64,000 nucleotides of DNA from Bacillota bacterium (GTDB taxonomy: Bacteria; Bacillota; UBA4882; UBA8346). This document shows positions 1-19,222 of this stretch, in pieces. The notes under the pieces are model-generated. The model searched no databases. It was not told where the DNA came from and worked only from the letters and a program-made list of their open reading frames with translations. Each line of letters opens with the position of its first letter. Positions within the stretch are counted from its first letter, which is position 1. The translations under genes and the position numbers were made by a program. The stretch is from NCBI GenBank assembly GCA_029776205.1, contig JAKOTQ010000001.1, positions 1 through 64,000 of the forward strand, given 5' to 3'.

Positions 1-279
<279 letters not shown>

Positions 280-10035: not shown

Positions 10036-12288
10036 TTAATTCAAAGGATTAACCTGCTGTTCATACTCCATGATCATCAACGCTTCCTGTTGACCAACAT
10101 TAGGCAAGTCAAGGGCAAGTTTAACCGTAAAGATCACTTTCGATCCATAACTCAACATGGTACTGGGATCTATCAACTCGTAACCTAAAATCGTGAACGA
10201 TTTGACCTTAAAACTGGAACCCAAAGCATCCATCTTGGCCAGTTCATCGTTAATAAATCGTTGAACCTCATACGAATCAAAGTCAATGTCATAGTCCAGC
10301 TTTACACACTGGGCACCGCTGACTCTCACCTCATCCGTTGCCACCATCCTGATCTGAAGTATTACATTCTTCCCATTAGGGAGGTGCCAAGTTACCCGCC
10401 CAAAATCCCAAGAATCCCCGATTTTAAAGGTTTTTCCTGAAAACCGTTTCATCCTGTTCTCCCATTGTTGATAAAACATCTGCTTAATTTGGGCTGGCGT
10501 GAGTGTGGCTCCTTGAAAATCTTTCATCAATATTTCAAAATCTCCCTGAATCTCGAAATCACGCAACCGTCCGGTTGAATCAGTGAAATACCGAATCTCC
10601 GTATTCTGCAATTGACGATTGAATTGTCTACGATCAACCTCTTCCCCTCGCAGAAACTCCCGCACAGAAACAAATTGCTGTTTCACTAAGTAATTATTCT
10701 GATTTTTGGTAAAAGATGTATCCCAAATCACTTCCCGTTCCAGCACTTTCATCGACTCATTAACCGCTGAAACCGTTACCGTTTGCCGTTCGATTTGTCT
10801 CAAACGTTTTCCGTTGGGAGGATTGAAGGTAAAACGATAGATTTGCCCTCTTTGTAAAGCGCTTGAACTTATGGTGATTTCCCGGGAATCCCCCAAGATC
10901 CGGTTGGGTAGCCTTTCAGCAATATAGTAAACCGTCGTCCCTGCGACAGCCTGATAACCAAAGCCGGCATCCCCTAAAATCCGTCCGCCATATCCGGTAA
11001 TAATCTGATCATAAGCCCGTCCTTCCGAACCGTTAAACACTACAAACCATTGTTTGCCGCGACATGCACTGTAAACAACATCACCCCGGTTATTAAAAGC
11101 CAAACTATCCCGGCCAATGGCATCATATAAACGGCCGGATACATGATTTACCGGAACCATCCATTTGCCGCTTTTCCGTGCCACATAGGCAAATTTTCGA
11201 CTATCCGGACTAAAGATAATGGTGCCCTCACCAACTGCCTCGTATTTCTCGGAATGTTTCCCGTCAACGAACACGATCCAATGGTTGCCAACCTTTGCAG
11301 CATAGGCAACTCTTTCCCCGTTGGGGCTGAATACGGGAGAATGCTCCAATACCGCGTCATACGGCCCGGTCTCCTTTCCATCGACAACCACTACCCAGCC
11401 CTTTTCCGTTAAGGCCGTATAACCGTAGCGATGGCCGGTTTGACTGAAAACAATACCCTGATTACCGACTTTAAGATATTTTTTCGATTCAATGTCGTCG
11501 ATAACCGCGTATTGATAATCTCCCGTCTGGGCAATAAACCCTAACCGCGAACTGTCCGGACTGAAGCACAAACTATTGGGCCTAATGAACTCATATTTGG
11601 ATGTTTCTTTTTCGTTCACCACAACCAGGAACTGACTGCCATCCCGAACCAATACAGCAAGACGTTGACCGTCCGGACTAAACACCACGTTCCGAATACC
11701 GTCATAGGATTTCCCCGGCCGACCGTCCTCCACCAAAAACCAAGCCTCGTTTTGTTGGGCAGCGTAGACCAGCCGTTTTCCGTCCGGACTGAATTTTAAA
11801 GTCATCACATTGATATCATCATAGAGCGGATGTTCAGTTTTGTCCTGAACCACCCGCCACTGATCGCCCGTTTTGGCCACATAGGCAAAATGGGCGCCGT
11901 CAGGACTGAAAACCAAAGATTTCTTTTTAATCTCCGGATAAGGGGTATGTTCAACCCCGTCATATACCAAAAAGAACTGGGCATTCCGTTTGGCGATATA
12001 CAGGATATGTTGACTGTCAGGCGTGAAGTAAATCGTATCATCCAAAATATCTTCATATTTCTTCTGACGGATCCCGTTGACCACCACCGATTTACCTGAC
12101 TCATCCTGTACAATCATTCCGATATTGGCCCCATTCGGGCTGATTTTCAGCGTTCCAGGCAACCAGGCTTTCTCAATCACCATACGTGGTGTTTCCGTAA
12201 ATACCCGTCCCTCAAATTCTCCTTTGGCAACTGCCGAAACGGCTAAACAACCGATAATCGCCAAACTCAGAACCAGTTTTTTTAACAT
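10036..12288 (-). CDS. Secreted beta-propeller protein with C-terminal uncharacterised domain
   Basis: 750 residues. A signal peptide is visible at the N terminus (MLKKLVLSLAIIGCLAVSAVAKG). About residues 45-450 hold ten tandem repeats of roughly 41 residues, each with a core such as FSPDGKRLVYAAQQ followed by W.F.VVDG....YD.I. They resemble TolB/WD40-like propeller blades. A C-terminal portion of about 280 residues lacks blades and begins near a YRFTFNPPNGKRLRQIER segment. It resembles in style the secreted protein at 31624-32628. The function is unknown; an extracytoplasmic binding or scaffold role is inferred. It lies 70 bp downstream of the HAD phosphatase gene on the same strand. Confidence 0.8.
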   Translation of the reverse strand: MLKKLVLSLAIIGCLAVSAVAKGEFEGRVFTETPRMVIEKAWLPGTLKISPNGANIGMIVQDESGKSVVVNGIRQKKYEDILDDTIYFTPDSQHILYIAKRNAQFFLVYDGVEHTPYPEIKKKSLVFSPDGAHFAYVAKTGDQWRVVQDKTEHPLYDDINVMTLKFSPDGKRLVYAAQQNEAWFLVEDGRPGKSYDGIRNVVFSPDGQRLAVLVRDGSQFLVVVNEKETSKYEFIRPNSLCFSPDSSRLGFIAQTGDYQYAVIDDIESKKYLKVGNQGIVFSQTGHRYGYTALTEKGWVVVVDGKETGPYDAVLEHSPVFSPNGERVAYAAKVGNHWIVFVDGKHSEKYEAVGEGTIIFSPDSRKFAYVARKSGKWMVPVNHVSGRLYDAIGRDSLAFNNRGDVVYSACRGKQWFVVFNGSEGRAYDQIITGYGGRILGDAGFGYQAVAGTTVYYIAERLPNRILGDSREITISSSALQRGQIYRFTFNPPNGKRLRQIERQTVTVSAVNESMKVLEREVIWDTSFTKNQNNYLVKQQFVSVREFLRGEEVDRRQFNRQLQNTEIRYFTDSTGRLRDFEIQGDFEILMKDFQGATLTPAQIKQMFYQQWENRMKRFSGKTFKIGDSWDFGRVTWHLPNGKNVILQIRMVATDEVRVSGAQCVKLDYDIDFDSYEVQRFINDELAKMDALGSSFKVKSFTILGYELIDPSTMLSYGSKVIFTVKLALDLPNVGQQEALMIMEYEQQVNPLN

Positions 12289-12358: not shown

Positions 12359-13060
12359 TTATTTCATCCGCATGGAACCCTTTGGTGTTTTTAACAATAA
12401 TTTCATCAAATCCTCGGCATCCACAGCAATTGCCATGGGCCTGACCGCTTCAAGTTCCGCGCGGGATCCATAACCATAACCGACGCCAATGGCATCCATT
12501 CCATTGGCTCGGGCACCTAAAATATCATGTTTCCGATCCCCCACCATCACAGCGGACTCAGGCGATATCTCCGGAAATTGCTCCAGCAAATAAGCAATGA
12601 CTTCCCCTTTTTCCACCCGGCTTCCGTCCAAATTGCTTCCGATAATCGCTTCAAAAAAACCGTCCAACTGAAAATGGCGTAAAATCTGTTCTGAAAATTC
12701 GGTCGGCTTTGACGTCGCCACCCACAATTTCTTATGTTGGTCTTTAAGTCGAAAGAGCAGTTCCGGTATTCCAGAATACACATAATTTTCAAACATTCCC
12801 TTTTCTCTGAAATATTCCCGGTAATATTCCACCGCTCGCCAAGCATCATCGCTTTTCAATGCATAATAGCGTTCGAAAGATTCTTTCAAAGGCGGCCCGA
12901 TAAAGGCCCGAAGCCGCATCGGGTCCGGTTCTTCAATACCCATTTTAGCCAAAGCATATTGAATGGAACGAATAATTCCTTCCCCGGGATCTGTTAACGT
13001 ACCATCGAGGTCAAACAAGATATGTTGATAATTTTTCACACCGTTCACTTTCAATATCAT
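12359..13060 (-). CDS. HAD hydrolase, phosphoglycolate phosphatase (Gph/PpaX) type
   Basis: About 233 residues. HILFDLDGTLTDPGEGIIRSI is motif I with the DxD and a Gph-like entry to the cap domain; ATSKPTEF is motif II and VMVGDRKHDILGARANG is motif IV. IGPPLKESF in the cap fits the phosphoglycolate phosphatase group. The start is uncertain: ATG at 13060 lies very close to GGGGAG, and the TTG at 13054 has better spacing. An upstream in-frame ATG at 13129 has no ribosome site. Downstream on the same strand is the propeller gene. Confidence 0.82.
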   Translation of the reverse strand: MILKVNGVKNYQHILFDLDGTLTDPGEGIIRSIQYALAKMGIEEPDPMRLRAFIGPPLKESFERYYALKSDDAWRAVEYYREYFREKGMFENYVYSGIPELLFRLKDQHKKLWVATSKPTEFSEQILRHFQLDGFFEAIIGSNLDGSRVEKGEVIAYLLEQFPEISPESAVMVGDRKHDILGARANGMDAIGVGYGYGSRAELEAVRPMAIAVDAEDLMKLLLKTPKGSMRMK

Positions 13061-13144: not shown

Positions 13145-13646
13145 TCAGCTGCCAACCAAAAAAGCTGTTCCCGGATGAATGTACGACCGTTCCACAGCCG
13201 GGTCCCATTCATCGCAACTGACATCATCGCCACCGTACAATATTTGTGCAAGGATCACCTTGCGATACTGGGCTACCGCAAAAATTGCTGCTGCCTCCAT
13301 CTCCACACATAACATCCTTCCGACTTCCTGAGTTTAACCTTATCCGGCGTTTCCCGGAAGATGGCGTCTGTAGTCCATGTTTTAGACAGCAAATATGCAC
13401 ATTGATGCTTTTCCAGAACCCGCCGGATCGCTTCAATCCCTTCCGGACTGGCAGCTACTTCCCGCGAAGGAGGAAGATAATGATAGGAAAAACCTTCATC
13501 CCGAAGGGCTGAAACCGAAACCAGCAGGTGCTCCACAGTGTAACTTCTCCATAATCTCTCCGGTGGTGCGTAAATCAAGCCCAAACGAAGACCCGGAGCA
13601 ACAATCTTAGAAAAAGTACCAAGCAAAACAGCAGTCCTACGGTAAT
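13145..13646 (-). pseudogene. Mosaic pseudogene: aminotransferase fragment joined to a frameshifted nucleoside phosphorylase
   Basis: On the minus strand the readable frame starts right after the terminator with residues YRRTAVLLGTFSKIVAPGLRLG, the PLP-lysine region of a class I/II aminotransferase (GTFSK, PGLRLG). After APPERL it changes without a stop into the C-terminal part of a nucleoside (uridine-type) phosphorylase: ALRDEGFSYHYLPPSREV, SKTWTTDAIFRETP, KLRKSEGC. One base change of frame near 13310 breaks it; the phosphorylase continues in another frame as VEMEAAAIFAVAQYR and YGGDDVSCDEWDP to a stop at 13145-13147. Both parent genes are therefore truncated and fused, and the product is not expected to work. 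It sits behind a riboswitch and terminator. Confidence 0.85.
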
Positions 13647-13654
13647 AGCTGCAT

Positions 13655-13697
13655 ACAAAAGCCCGAAGGAAGGAGCAGTGAGACTCCTTCCTCGGGC
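13655..13697 (-). terminator. Riboswitch-controlled intrinsic terminator
   Basis: Minus strand GCCCGAGGAAGGAG (13684-13697) pairs with CTCCTTCCTTCGGGC (13661-13675) around the loop TCTCACTG, followed by TTTTG. The 5' arm is also the conserved 3' strand of the aptamer, and the loop holds the 3' strand of aptamer stem P1, so aptamer and terminator are mutually exclusive. Confidence 0.85.
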
Positions 13698-13779
13698 TTT
13701 TCTCCCAAGGGTGTTGCGTTACCGCTTGCCTCGCTTAGACCGAACCCAGAAACAGGTGGAACCCTAGGTGTACTCTCAC
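13678..13779 (-). ncRNA. ykkC-family riboswitch aptamer
   Basis: Read on the minus strand, the segment is closed by P1 (GTGAGA at 13774-13779 with TCTCAC at 13678-13683). It contains the ykkC-type conserved blocks CTAGGGTTCC (13758-13767), ACACCC and GGGAGAAAAGCCCGAGG. The overlap with the terminator arm predicts an ON switch: ligand binding frees the downstream region. Family members sense guanidine, ppGpp, PRPP or nucleoside diphosphates; the sub-class cannot be settled by eye. The gene it once controlled appears to have been deleted, leaving the mosaic pseudogene. Confidence 0.72.
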
Positions 13780-13807
13780 CATCATGTATACAAAATACTT
13801 TTTAAGT

Positions 13808-13836
13808 ATGTTAACAAAAGAACCTGGGTATGTCAA
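13808..13836 (-). promoter_or_regulatory. Promoter of the riboswitch transcript
   Basis: Minus strand TTGACA (13831-13836) and TAACAT (13808-13813) are 17 bp apart. The predicted start near 13801 lies about 20 nt before aptamer stem P1. Confidence 0.75.
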
Positions 13837-14663: not shown

Positions 14664-15302
14664 TTATTCATTCCGCTCTGCTAAATAATGAAAGAGAGTA
14701 GCCAAGCCGGCAGCTAAATCTTCATTACGCAATACAACATGGGAAGGGACCTCGATCACCGCTGGAGCAAAGTTCCAAATGGCCCGAATTCCGGCTTCAA
14801 CCAATACATTGGCAATAGACTGAGCATACTCGGCCGGAACAGTAATAATGGCCACTTTAATCTGGAGTCGCCGGATAATATGAAGTATCTCTTGGGTTGA
14901 AAAGACAGGCCTGCCGCTGACTTGAGTGCCGATTAATTCCGGATTAGAGTCGAACAAGGCCACGATATGAAGTCCATATCGTTCGAATCCCGGATAATCA
15001 ATGATCGCCCGACCTAAACGGCCAACACCGATTAATACGGCTTCATTCACGTTATTTAGGCCTAATACCTCTTCCAGCTTGGCCTTTAAATCCGCTACAC
15101 AATATCCGACTCCCGGTGTTCCCATCGCTCCAAACAACGCCAGGTCTTTACGGACTTGTACCGCATTAACCTGAGCTGCTTTGCCAATCTGTTCCGAAGA
15201 TACATATTCCTGGTTTCGGTCCAGACAAGCCCGAAGGCACCGGTAATACAGAGGCAGCCGTTTAAGGGTGAATTTCGGCACTTTGATCGAGTCCGAATGC
15301 AT
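14664..15302 (-). CDS. rex: Redox-sensing transcriptional repressor Rex
   Basis: 212 residues, typical Rex length. An N-terminal winged helix (about 1-80: TLKRLPLYYRCL, NAVQVRKDLALFG) is followed by a Rossmann NAD(H) domain (VLIGVGRLGRAIIDYPGF, about 88-105) and the C-terminal swapped helix (LATLFHYLAER). Rex releases operators of fermentation and hydrogen genes when NADH rises. The ATG at 15302 has AGGAG at proper spacing; a GTG at 15308 lies too close. It is the last gene of the hydrogenase operon, 6 bp after hydA, so the repressor is probably co-transcribed with its own target. Confidence 0.95.
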   Translation of the reverse strand: MHSDSIKVPKFTLKRLPLYYRCLRACLDRNQEYVSSEQIGKAAQVNAVQVRKDLALFGAMGTPGVGYCVADLKAKLEEVLGLNNVNEAVLIGVGRLGRAIIDYPGFERYGLHIVALFDSNPELIGTQVSGRPVFSTQEILHIIRRLQIKVAIITVPAEYAQSIANVLVEAGIRAIWNFAPAVIEVPSHVVLRNEDLAAGLATLFHYLAERNE

Positions 15303-15308
15303 TGCCAC

Positions 15309-17339
15309 CTACTCCTTATTTCTTTCCAATTCCGGCAGCACTTTCTCCTGAATGAAGGTTCCAACCCGTTCCGCAGTGATCCCTCCGTATATCTGGTCAT
15401 TCACCCGGACTGAAGGACTGTTTTCACAGCCTTCCAGACAGAAGGTAGCATGGAGATTCAGTTGCTCTTTGATTCCATTCCGTTCGGCCTGACGAATAAA
15501 TTCCTGCAACGTATCATAAGAACCCTTCGTATAACAGCAGGTACCCAAACAGACCGCCAAATCCACCTTATGCTCACGATCACTATTCAGCAACTCGATA
15601 TCTTCACCGGTAATCCGGGCGCGGGTACTATATGAGGTGTGCAACGTCTCATGGGCTTCATGGCTATTCGGGCGTTGCAGCCATTTTTCATAGAACTTGG
15701 CCACCACCGGGTTATCTTGGGACTTCCGCAATTGGGAAAGTTTATCCGCATGATAAATCCCACGGGCCCTGGCCTTTTTCGTATTCATATCCACAGCCTG
15801 AGGCTGTCCAGCACCACTGATACATCCGCCAGGACAGGCCATTACTTCCACAAAGTCGTACTTTGCCTCACCGGAATTCAGCTTATTCAAAAGCTCTTTG
15901 GCATTGCCCAAACCGTGGACAACGGCAACTTTCACTTCTTTTCCATTCAAGTTGACTGTTGCTTCTTTTAAGCCGGCAAAACCGCGGATAGACTCAAAGT
16001 TCACCTGTTCCAGCACTTCTCCGGTGACCATCTCATAAGCTGCGCGAAGGGCTGCTTCAGCCACACCACCCGAGGCACCGAAGATGACTCCGGCACCGGT
16101 CGTAAAGCCAAAAGGCATATCAAAGGAGTCCGGATCAACAGCCGCGAAATCCAGGCCCGATTCCCGAATCATCTGGGACAACTCTTGCGTGGTCAATACC
16201 AGATCCACGTCCGGTACACCATCTACGGTAAATTCCGGCCGGGCCGCCTCAAATTTCTTCGCCGTACAAGGCATGATCGAAATGACATATATATCTTTGG
16301 GTTCTTTCCCCAATTCTTTTGCCCAGTACCGTTTCACTAAAGAACCGAACATCTGCTGGGGCGAACGACAGGTGGAAAGGTTCTTTAAGAGGTTGGATCC
16401 ATTATGCTCCGCATACTTCACCCAAGCCGGGCAGCAGGAGGTAAACAACGGCCCCTCTATGCCCTTTTCAAGCCGTTCTATCAATTCGGTAGTCTCTTCC
16501 ATAATGGTCAAATCCGCCGCAATACAGGTATCGAAGACTTTATCAAAGCCGAGCCGTTTCAAAGCGCCGACCACTTTCCCGGTGACGATCTGGCCTGCTT
16601 CCATCCCAAATTCTTCGCCTAAAGCAACCCGGACCGCCGGAGCCACCTGCGCAACAACCACTTTACTGGGGTCAGCCAACGCTTTCCAGGCTTGATTCAC
16701 TTGGGACTTCACCACCAAGGCTCCGGTGGGACATACGGCGCTACATTGGCCACAGTTGACACATTCTACTTCGGCCATTTTTTTGTTAAACGCCGGCGTA
16801 ACCTGAACTTTGGAACCCCGATTGGCAAAGTTCAAAATGCCGATTCCTTGAACTTCAGAGCACATCCGGACGCAATCGCCGCATAAAATACACTTATTCG
16901 GGTCCCGAACAATGGATGCGCTGGAGTCATCGATAGGCAATTTCATATCCCGCTCGCCGAAGCGGATTTTACGGACGCCAAACCGATTGGCCAAATCCTG
17001 AAGCTTACAGTTGCCGTTCTTTTCACAGGTGGTACATTCCCGCTCATGATTAGCCAAAAGCAATTCCAAAACCGTCCGGCGGACCCGCTGCACCCGTGGG
17101 CTATTGGTCAAGATCCGCATTCCGGGCGTAGGCGGCGTAGAACAGGCGGCAACGATGCCCCGGCCTTCGATTTCAACGACGCACATGCGGCAAGCTCCAT
17201 AAATGCTTAATTCCGAATGATAACAGAACGTCGGCAATTCCACCCCGACCTTACGCACTAAGGTCAGTAAATTAACTTCGCCATTGAGTTCCACCGGCTG
17301 ATTATCTATAAATACACTGTTTGCAGTGACAGTCATCAT
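15309..17339 (-). CDS. hydA: [FeFe] hydrogenase catalytic subunit HydA (multimeric, NADH-linked type)
   Basis: 676 residues. Ordered cofactor sites are: a [2Fe-2S] domain (Cys39, 50, 53, 66); a His-ligated [4Fe-4S] (His99, Cys103, 106, 112); two [4Fe-4S] clusters (Cys151/154/157 with Cys204, and Cys194/197/200 with Cys161). The H-cluster motifs are TSCCPAW (301-307), IMPCTAKK (356-363) and MACPGGC (501-507). From about residue 590 there is an added thioredoxin-like [2Fe-2S] domain (CLGTCC, FCLEGC). It makes or oxidises H2 and with HydB and HydC forms the soluble NADH/ferredoxin-coupled (probably electron-bifurcating) complex. The start overlaps the last base of hydB. Confidence 0.95.
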   Translation of the reverse strand: MMTVTANSVFIDNQPVELNGEVNLLTLVRKVGVELPTFCYHSELSIYGACRMCVVEIEGRGIVAACSTPPTPGMRILTNSPRVQRVRRTVLELLLANHERECTTCEKNGNCKLQDLANRFGVRKIRFGERDMKLPIDDSSASIVRDPNKCILCGDCVRMCSEVQGIGILNFANRGSKVQVTPAFNKKMAEVECVNCGQCSAVCPTGALVVKSQVNQAWKALADPSKVVVAQVAPAVRVALGEEFGMEAGQIVTGKVVGALKRLGFDKVFDTCIAADLTIMEETTELIERLEKGIEGPLFTSCCPAWVKYAEHNGSNLLKNLSTCRSPQQMFGSLVKRYWAKELGKEPKDIYVISIMPCTAKKFEAARPEFTVDGVPDVDLVLTTQELSQMIRESGLDFAAVDPDSFDMPFGFTTGAGVIFGASGGVAEAALRAAYEMVTGEVLEQVNFESIRGFAGLKEATVNLNGKEVKVAVVHGLGNAKELLNKLNSGEAKYDFVEVMACPGGCISGAGQPQAVDMNTKKARARGIYHADKLSQLRKSQDNPVVAKFYEKWLQRPNSHEAHETLHTSYSTRARITGEDIELLNSDREHKVDLAVCLGTCCYTKGSYDTLQEFIRQAERNGIKEQLNLHATFCLEGCENSPSVRVNDQIYGGITAERVGTFIQEKVLPELERNKE

Positions 17340-19222
17340 TATCCCTCCTTAATCGCTTTAAATGGGCAGGAGCTTACACAGGCGCCACATTTAATACATT
17401 TTTCACTATCAATCCGATAAGGTTTCTTAATTTCACCGGTGATCGCCCCAACCGGACAGACCCGACTGCACTTGCTACATCCTTTACAAGATTCCGGATC
17501 AATGCTGTAACCCAGCAATGCCTTACATACCCCTGCAGGGCAGCGTTTATCGACAACGTGGGCAACATATTCATCCTTAAAGTATTTAAGCATGGATAAT
17601 ACCGGATTCGGTGCAGTCTTGCCCAACCCGCACAAAGAACCATCTTTCACGGCTTCGGCCAAATCCTCCAAAATCTCCACATCTTCGGGACGGCCTTCAC
17701 CGTCAACGGCCCGCTGTAACATCTCCAACATCCGTTTGGTTCCTTCCCGGCAGGGAACACACTTACCACACGATTCATTTTGAGTAAAATTCATGAAGTA
17801 GCGGGCAAATTCCACCATACAGGTATCTTCATTCGTAACAACCAAACCGCCGGAACCGATCATTGCCCCGACTGACAACAACGAATCGAAGTCAAGCTCC
17901 ATATCCATATGCTGTTCCGTCAGACATCCTCCGGAAGGGCCGCCGATTTGCACCGCTTTAAACCGTTTACCGTTTCGGAGTCCGCCGCCGATCTCATAGA
18001 CGATATCCCGGAGGGTAATGCCCATCGGCACCTCGATCAATCCAGTATTCGCCACCTGCCCGGTGAGAGCGAAGGTTTTGGTACCCGGGCTCTTGGCTGT
18101 TCCGGATTTCCGGAATACCTTCGCACCGTCGTTGATGACTTTCGGCACGTTGGCAAAGGTTTCTACGTTATTGATCAACGTGGGTTTTCCCCACAAACCG
18201 GACTGAGCCGGGAACGGCGGCTTAGGACGGGGCATTCCACGTTCACCTTCGATAGAGGCCAACAGGGCAGTTTCTTCACCACACACGAAAGCTCCGGCTC
18301 CTTCTTTGATCTTAATCCGGAAATTAAACCCGGTTCCCAAAATATTCTCACCCAACAAACCCATTTCCAGGGCCTGTTTAATGGCGGTCTCCAACCGTTG
18401 AACAGCGAGAGGATACTCGGCACGGACATAAATATAGCCTTCATCCGCACCGACCGCATATCCGGCAATCGCCATGCCTTCCAAGACCTTATGGGGATCG
18501 CCTTCCATCACGCTGCGGTCCATAAAGGCACCCGGGTCTCCTTCGTCACCGTTACATACCACATATTTCTTTTCACCTTCACTGATTCGGGTGGCTTCCC
18601 ATTTCCGGCCGGTCGGAAACCCGCCGCCGCCCCGGCCCCGCAAACCGGAGTCGATCACTTCCTGGCAGACATCGGCCGGGCTCATCTCATGGAGGACTTT
18701 AGCTAAAGCCTGATAGCCACCTTCGGCGATATATTCCCGAATGTCTTCCGGATCAATAACACCGCAATGTTGCAGAACCGTCCGGGTCTGATGTTTATAA
18801 AAGGGAATATTGGATTCTTCGGCATAAATCTCACCGGTCACCGGATGCTTGTACAGCAACCGTTCCACCGGCCCTTTTCCTTCAAGTAACGCCGTAACGA
18901 TATCCGTTGCATCATCTTTGCTAACTTTGATATATAAAATCCCTCCGGGTTCTAAACGAACCAACGGACCCATTTCACAGAAGCCGTGACAACCGCTTTT
19001 CACAATCGTAGTTCCTGATTGCCCTTCTTCAAGCAACATCTCTACAGAAACATAGGCATTTCGACGTTGGACTTCCGCTTTAAGGGCTTCATATACCTGC
19101 AATGAACCATTAGCGACACAACCGGTTCCGGCACAAACCAAAATCCTGGCTGTTTCCTTGGCAAAACCCTCTTTCCAGGTTTTCCCCATGGTATTTAAAG
19201 TTTCTCTGGAATCGATTTTCAC
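17339..19222 (-). CDS. hydB: NADH-binding subunit HydB of the [FeFe] hydrogenase complex (NuoF-like)
   Basis: 627 residues. An N-terminal thioredoxin-like [2Fe-2S] domain (CAGTGCVANG, SGCHGFCEMGP) precedes the NuoF core with the NADH/FMN motifs RGRGGGGFPTGRKW and CNGDEGDPGAFMDR. The NuoF [4Fe-4S] site ESCGKCVPCREGTKRML follows at about 490, and a C-terminal two-[4Fe-4S] ferredoxin domain (CKGCSKCSRVCPVG, CIKCGACVSSCPF) ends the protein. This domain order is that of HydB in bifurcating hydrogenases, where it carries the flavin. GTG start; 4-nt overlap with hydC. Confidence 0.95.
   Translation of the reverse strand: MKIDSRETLNTMGKTWKEGFAKETARILVCAGTGCVANGSLQVYEALKAEVQRRNAYVSVEMLLEEGQSGTTIVKSGCHGFCEMGPLVRLEPGGILYIKVSKDDATDIVTALLEGKGPVERLLYKHPVTGEIYAEESNIPFYKHQTRTVLQHCGVIDPEDIREYIAEGGYQALAKVLHEMSPADVCQEVIDSGLRGRGGGGFPTGRKWEATRISEGEKKYVVCNGDEGDPGAFMDRSVMEGDPHKVLEGMAIAGYAVGADEGYIYVRAEYPLAVQRLETAIKQALEMGLLGENILGTGFNFRIKIKEGAGAFVCGEETALLASIEGERGMPRPKPPFPAQSGLWGKPTLINNVETFANVPKVINDGAKVFRKSGTAKSPGTKTFALTGQVANTGLIEVPMGITLRDIVYEIGGGLRNGKRFKAVQIGGPSGGCLTEQHMDMELDFDSLLSVGAMIGSGGLVVTNEDTCMVEFARYFMNFTQNESCGKCVPCREGTKRMLEMLQRAVDGEGRPEDVEILEDLAEAVKDGSLCGLGKTAPNPVLSMLKYFKDEYVAHVVDKRCPAGVCKALLGYSIDPESCKGCSKCSRVCPVGAITGEIKKPYRIDSEKCIKCGACVSSCPFKAIKEG

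Follow-up and report, generated by a model that had tools for sequence, protein, structure and literature searches.

A ykkC subtype-2 riboswitch with a half-broken P1 helix and broken genes downstream in a Bacillota bacterium

Among ykkC RNAs, guanidine aptamers have an A at position 46, while subtypes 2a and 2b have a pyrimidine (49) and an extra helix, P0 (PMC6031431). PRPP aptamers (2b) keep a flipped-out G96; ppGpp aptamers (2a) are without it, and their C75 pairs with the guanine of ppGpp (PMC6031431). Transporters of the natA kind are a published gene context of subtype 2a (PMC5912903), and a natA aptamer from Clostridiales is reported to prefer pppGpp about tenfold (PMC12373219). Subtype 2c RNAs precede HAD hydrolases, and the orphan class 2d also precedes transporters (PMC7266159). 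According to published work on ykkC switches, mutual exclusion of terminator and aptamer makes an ON switch (PMC5912903, PMC6031431). Here we describe an RNA of this superfamily in a 64-kb stretch of bacterial DNA, referred to below as the window.

Identity and parts of the element

The element lies on the minus strand, from 13836 to 13655, and is a real ykkC feature. We built a covariance model, R2, from eight relatives with the window left out; it scores the element at 82.8 bits (E=1.2e-21 over the 64-kb window), a match in both sequence and structure to the ykkC superfamily. Because of this score we regard homology to ykkC RNAs as settled. RNAalifold applied to the R2 relatives recovered P0, P1, P1a, P2 and P3, with 12 pairs changed on both sides. 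At the Rfam gathering threshold no match was found at the site; below it, Guanidine-I (RF00442) was the sole low-score match, at 24.5 bits against a cut-off of 63, and no separate ppGpp or PRPP family scored. The first-pass annotation had called the RNA ykkC-type and proposed a covariance search as the check. The Guanidine-I model fails this check, but the leave-window-out model upholds the call far above chance.

The same genome has a second ykkC riboswitch, of the PRPP type (2b), between purE and purB (G000:C105:49255-49364; L040 2056-2165, minus strand). It too is below the RF00442 cut-off, at 57.9 bits.

Table 1. Features of the riboswitch locus, in window coordinates
Feature	Position	Strand	Basis or remark
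Promoter-like site TTGACA-17-TAACAT, TG before second hexamer	13808..13836	-	Consensus scan
Second promoter candidate, TTAACA and TATACA	13809-13814 and 13785-13790	-	Overlaps first candidate
ykkC subtype-2 aptamer, P0 to P0	13677..13780	-	R2 82.8 bits; RF00442 24.5 bits
P0 5' strand GUGAGA	13774..13779	-	Pairs with UCUCAC (13678-13683); complete
P1 5' strand UACACC	13767..13772	-	Partner GAGGCA (13727-13732); three of six pairs form
Conserved block GGUCUAAGC	13733..13741	-	C where guanidine aptamers have A; one conserved C now U
P2 hairpin GCG-GUAA-CGC	13716..13725	-	Sequence and fold
P3 hairpin CCCUUGGG-AGAAAAG-CCCGAGG	13690..13711	-	Antiterminator, without G96-type bulge; covarying pairs in relatives
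Terminator hairpin	13657..13701	-	5' arm takes up P3 3' strand; P0 3' strand in loop; short U-tract
PLP-dependent aminotransferase fragment, around PLP lysine	13558..13647	-	phmmer to 1vp4, 1wst and 1x0m, E about 1e-3
PNP_UDP_1 (nucleoside phosphorylase superfamily) pseudogene	13148..13536	-	Frameshift near 13315

Read along the minus strand, the promoter-like site is followed by GUGAGAGUACACCUAGGGUUCC...GGUCUAAGCGAGGCAAGCGGUAACGCAACACCCUUGGGAGAAAAGCCCGAGGAAGGAGUCUCAC and then by the terminator half CUCCUUCCUUCGGGCUUUUGU; the conserved ykkC blocks are represented by CUAGGGUUCC, GGUCUAAGCG and ACACC-P3 (Table 1). An intact promoter had been claimed in the first-pass annotation. A promoter-like site is indeed present, but chance alone predicts 1.3 such sites for the scanned stretch, and hence the match by itself is not above chance. 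The sequence GTATACA directly upstream of P0 is common to the window and three other loci (L041, L042 and L060) and is perhaps the -10 element of the true promoter.

When the full leader is folded, a hairpin from 13701 to 13657 takes up the 3' strand of P3 (13696-13690) and leaves the 3' strand of P0 (13683-13678) in its loop, as the annotation had supposed in letting the terminator capture the 3' aptamer strand. The hairpin has a z-score of -2.78, and none of the shuffled sequences folded as well. Its stem is near-perfect, with 19 pairs, and the hairpin ends in UUUU. Folding the leader without its last part returns the same bases to P0 and P3. In these folds, terminator and aptamer states are mutually exclusive. 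Together with the published ykkC logic, this exclusivity suggests that the ancestor of the element was an ON switch; the ligand-ON behaviour predicted earlier thus stands as a design of the ancestor. The U-tract of the window, UUUUGUAU, is shorter and poorer than the UUUUU to UUUUUU of the nearest relatives.

Subtype marks and relatives

By alignment, the window element has C at position 49, P0 and C75, and lacks G96; this is the structural combination of subtype 2a. It shares the ancestral ykkC fold and the conserved blocks with Guanidine-I RNAs (RF00442, subtype 1) but differs from them in its covariance score, far short of the cut-off, in having C in place of the diagnostic A (position 46), in the presence of P0 and in the absence of a guanidine gene. 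Guanidine is disfavoured as the ligand by the subtype-2 base and by P0. With 2b RNAs the window has in common the fold, P0 and the terminator logic; in contrast to them, its P3 continues without a flipped-out G, and neither the UAGG-UUUC segment nor a purine gene next to the element is present. The missing G96 bulge and UAGG joining segment disfavour PRPP.

The segments that join the helices were compared across loci. At the purine-operon loci that we collected, the joining segment is close to GGNUAGG-UUUC, while glutamate-synthase loci have CGGAAGG or CGGAGGG before UUCC or UCCC, and branched-chain loci have GCGGMAAG-UUCC. The window group has GGAAGGAG-UCUC, with GGACGAG in G329 and G370. Based on this comparison and the subtype marks, the window appears to fall with the ppGpp-associated RNAs while having its own joining segment. 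It has AAGG in this segment, as in the glutamate-synthase 2a loci, but two more nucleotides (AG) than these before the 3' strand of P0.

The relatives were sought in 29 genomes from the class and, at the level of the phylum, in 398. Covariance models were used for this, since the exact group pattern occurred in only four of the genome contigs, three of them already known. Eight close relatives were found (in G005, G006, G007, G015, G067 and G108 and, further off, in G329 and G370), and natA-like exporters accompany four of them. An ABC exporter ATPase and permeases lie directly behind the riboswitch in G006 and G108; in G067 a permease of the same kind is found there, and in G005 the exporter comes after a GNAT gene and a PhzF-like gene. 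G329 and G370 have an MFS carrier behind the riboswitch, and the G015 locus stops at a contig edge. From the ATPase sequence we read the exporters as the natA of the literature; the best NCBIfam match is drrA, below its cut-off. In G007 (L043 546-1400, G007:C19), a truncated GNAT gene and then a broken aminotransferase come behind an intact-looking riboswitch of the window group. Judging from this damaged copy, loss of the target gene would have happened more than once.

Because natA-like ABC exporters, a published context of 2a, lie behind several of the nearest relatives, our best guess for the class of the window element is 2a (ppGpp), a class assigned here to an RNA whose joining segment, GGAAGGAG, is unlike those of the glutamate-synthase and branched-chain 2a loci. 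With natA-associated 2a RNAs the window has in common the fold, P0, the pyrimidine at 49, C75, the lack of G96 and the exclusive terminator, and its relatives have the exporters; this last likeness is one of gene context, not of aptamer sequence. Unlike those RNAs, the window copy has a half-broken P1 and no target gene: downstream of it there is no amino-acid, glutamate-synthase or natA gene, only gene fragments. The ligand class had earlier been called unclear for want of the usual downstream gene. The gene is indeed missing, but the diagnostic base, P0, G96 and the relatives narrow the class without it.

One alternative is a separate exporter-linked ykkC subtype whose ligand is not (p)ppGpp, of which the window copy would be a decayed or weak member. 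The joining segment (GGAAGGAG or GGACGAG) and the nearly fixed P0 (GAGAG/UCUC) of the group do differ from those of the glutamate-synthase and branched-chain loci, its members are found before ABC exporters and before MFS carriers (the latter in two genomes), and class 2d, likewise found before transporters, offers a parallel. However, natA is already assigned to 2a, with an aptamer reported to favour pppGpp (PMC5912903, PMC12373219), and the pocket bases tested fit 2a. We consider this alternative quite unlikely. Similarly doubtful is a related proposal, that the copy in this genome (G000) and those of the eight relatives form a ykkC subtype of their own with a distinct ligand preference (pppGpp or a new ligand), tying export to the signal. 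Such a subtype would be marked by its joining segment, by a P0 that hardly varies and, often, by an exporter gene downstream.

The P1 helix and the genes behind the terminator

The first-pass annotation described the riboswitch as complete, with all parts intact. This description does not hold. Half of P1 is lost to the mismatches A.C, A.G and C.A, the second C of GGWCC, kept by 40 of 40 other loci, is U in the window, and the U-tract is short. We counted P1 pairs in 41 loci aligned to model R1, the window included. All six pairs form in 39 of the 40 other loci and five in the remaining one, L051, which shares the first mismatch of the window; the window lacks an intact P1 helix to carry P1a. 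Forced into a hairpin, P1 has an energy of -0.2 kcal/mol in the window, compared to -5.3 to -9.3 kcal/mol in the relatives. Two further measures do not set the window apart: it does not stand out in its number of deviations at near-invariant positions, and partition-function probabilities for P1 were not decisive, being low also for several RNAs with intact P1. The argument for decay rests on two observations, the P1 pair count across loci and the loss of the gene. Further points count against it. P0 and P3 are complete, and the retention of both, along with the P2 hairpin and the terminator, is odd for a long neutral decay; and a shifted P1 of three pairs (CCU/AGG) is possible in the window.

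A near-perfect terminator stem beside a broken P1 would also fit an element that is kept only as a plain terminator, or a short leader RNA, shielding the region from transcription, its aptamer being irrelevant. Against this speak the U-tract, shorter than in the relatives, the intactness of P0, which lies outside the terminator stem, and the absence of any sign of selection on the terminator. We regard this explanation as very improbable.

The usual downstream gene was said to be missing. It is, and the remains of two broken genes follow the terminator (Table 1). The first sequence behind the terminator on the minus strand, YYRRTAVLLGTFSKIVAPGLRLGLIYAPPE, is similar to aminotransferases around their PLP lysine. 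This fragment has neither a start nor a continuation, and NCBIfam aminotransferase-like profiles match it at weak E-values. The remnant in G007 aligns to the next part of the same aminotransferases (1x0m 266-333, E 1.4e-11). With aminotransferase remnants behind both copies, the window and G007 riboswitches may at one time have stood before genes of the same type. The second broken gene matches positions 90-168 of the Pfam profile PNP_UDP_1 in one frame and 170-196 in the next; the latter match, taken by itself, is weak (E=0.0086). Pfam recognized the phosphorylase pieces, but searches of the PDB with them gave no match. In ten family genomes the phosphorylase remnant had no relative besides itself at E<=1e-5, and no natA-type ATPase like that of G006 was found in the genome at E<=1e-40.

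Beyond both broken genes, the next intact gene on the strand encodes a HAD phosphatase (12359-13057). The riboswitch could still be working despite its weak P1, through tertiary docking or a shifted P1, and control this gene by read-through, like ykkC 2c RNAs, which precede HAD hydrolases; P0, P3, the terminator and the promoter-like site are intact. The window does share with 2c (nucleoside diphosphates) and 2d (orphan) RNAs the subtype-2 marks, a HAD gene further downstream and relatives that precede transporters. In 2c RNAs, however, the NUDIX or HAD gene is directly downstream, whereas here about 600 nt and two broken genes separate the terminator from the HAD start. Among the HAD orthologues found in relatives, none has a ykkC match nearby; orthologues of the HAD and membrane-protein genes lie on other contigs, unlinked to each other or to the riboswitch. 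Moreover, all 40 other loci have at least five of the six P1 pairs, and the nearest relatives precede exporters rather than hydrolases. The transporters behind the relatives are ABC and MFS, not EamA or TauE. The distinction from 2c and 2d is drawn by gene context, not by consensus sequences. A switch still acting on the HAD gene seems unlikely to us.

Other features of the window include the 5' end of a 16S rRNA gene (1-279, minus strand), cut by the window edge. A gene at 10036-12288 encodes a 750-aa protein with a signal-like start and PD40/WD40-type propeller repeats, and is flanked by two HAD phosphatase genes on opposite strands. At 14664-19222, a gene for a Rex-like redox repressor stands beside two large genes that read as components of an NADH-linked FeFe-hydrogenase-type complex (NuoF/HydB-like and HydA-like).

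Present state of the element

With P1 broken and the controlled gene reduced to fragments, the element is probably no longer a working switch but a fossil. Our favoured explanation, held with moderate confidence, is that of a ykkC subtype-2 riboswitch that has been orphaned and is degenerating. Its nearest kin would be the natA-exporter-associated group, most likely of the ppGpp class (2a); it would have lost ligand binding, or retain it badly weakened, and would terminate by default. In the ancestor, the aptamer would have been made on transcription, and (p)ppGpp in its pocket would have kept P0 and P3 together, barring the 3' strand of P3 from the terminator and letting transcription continue into an exporter or amino-acid gene. 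In the window copy, three of the six P1 pairs are gone while P0, P3 and the terminator hairpin remain. Its leader, presumably binding ligand poorly or not at all, would stop transcription by default, with no target gene of its own remaining.

For annotation, the Rfam cut-off for Guanidine-I misses subtype-2 ykkC RNAs, as seen for the window copy and for the PRPP-type copy beside purE and purB. As a result, ppGpp and PRPP switches are easily overlooked. An exporter-linked group emerges from the relatives, and its ligand preference is open to direct testing. The window itself provides a fairly clean case of a riboswitch after gene loss, in which a promoter-like site, the outer helices and the terminator remain while a core helix has begun to decay.
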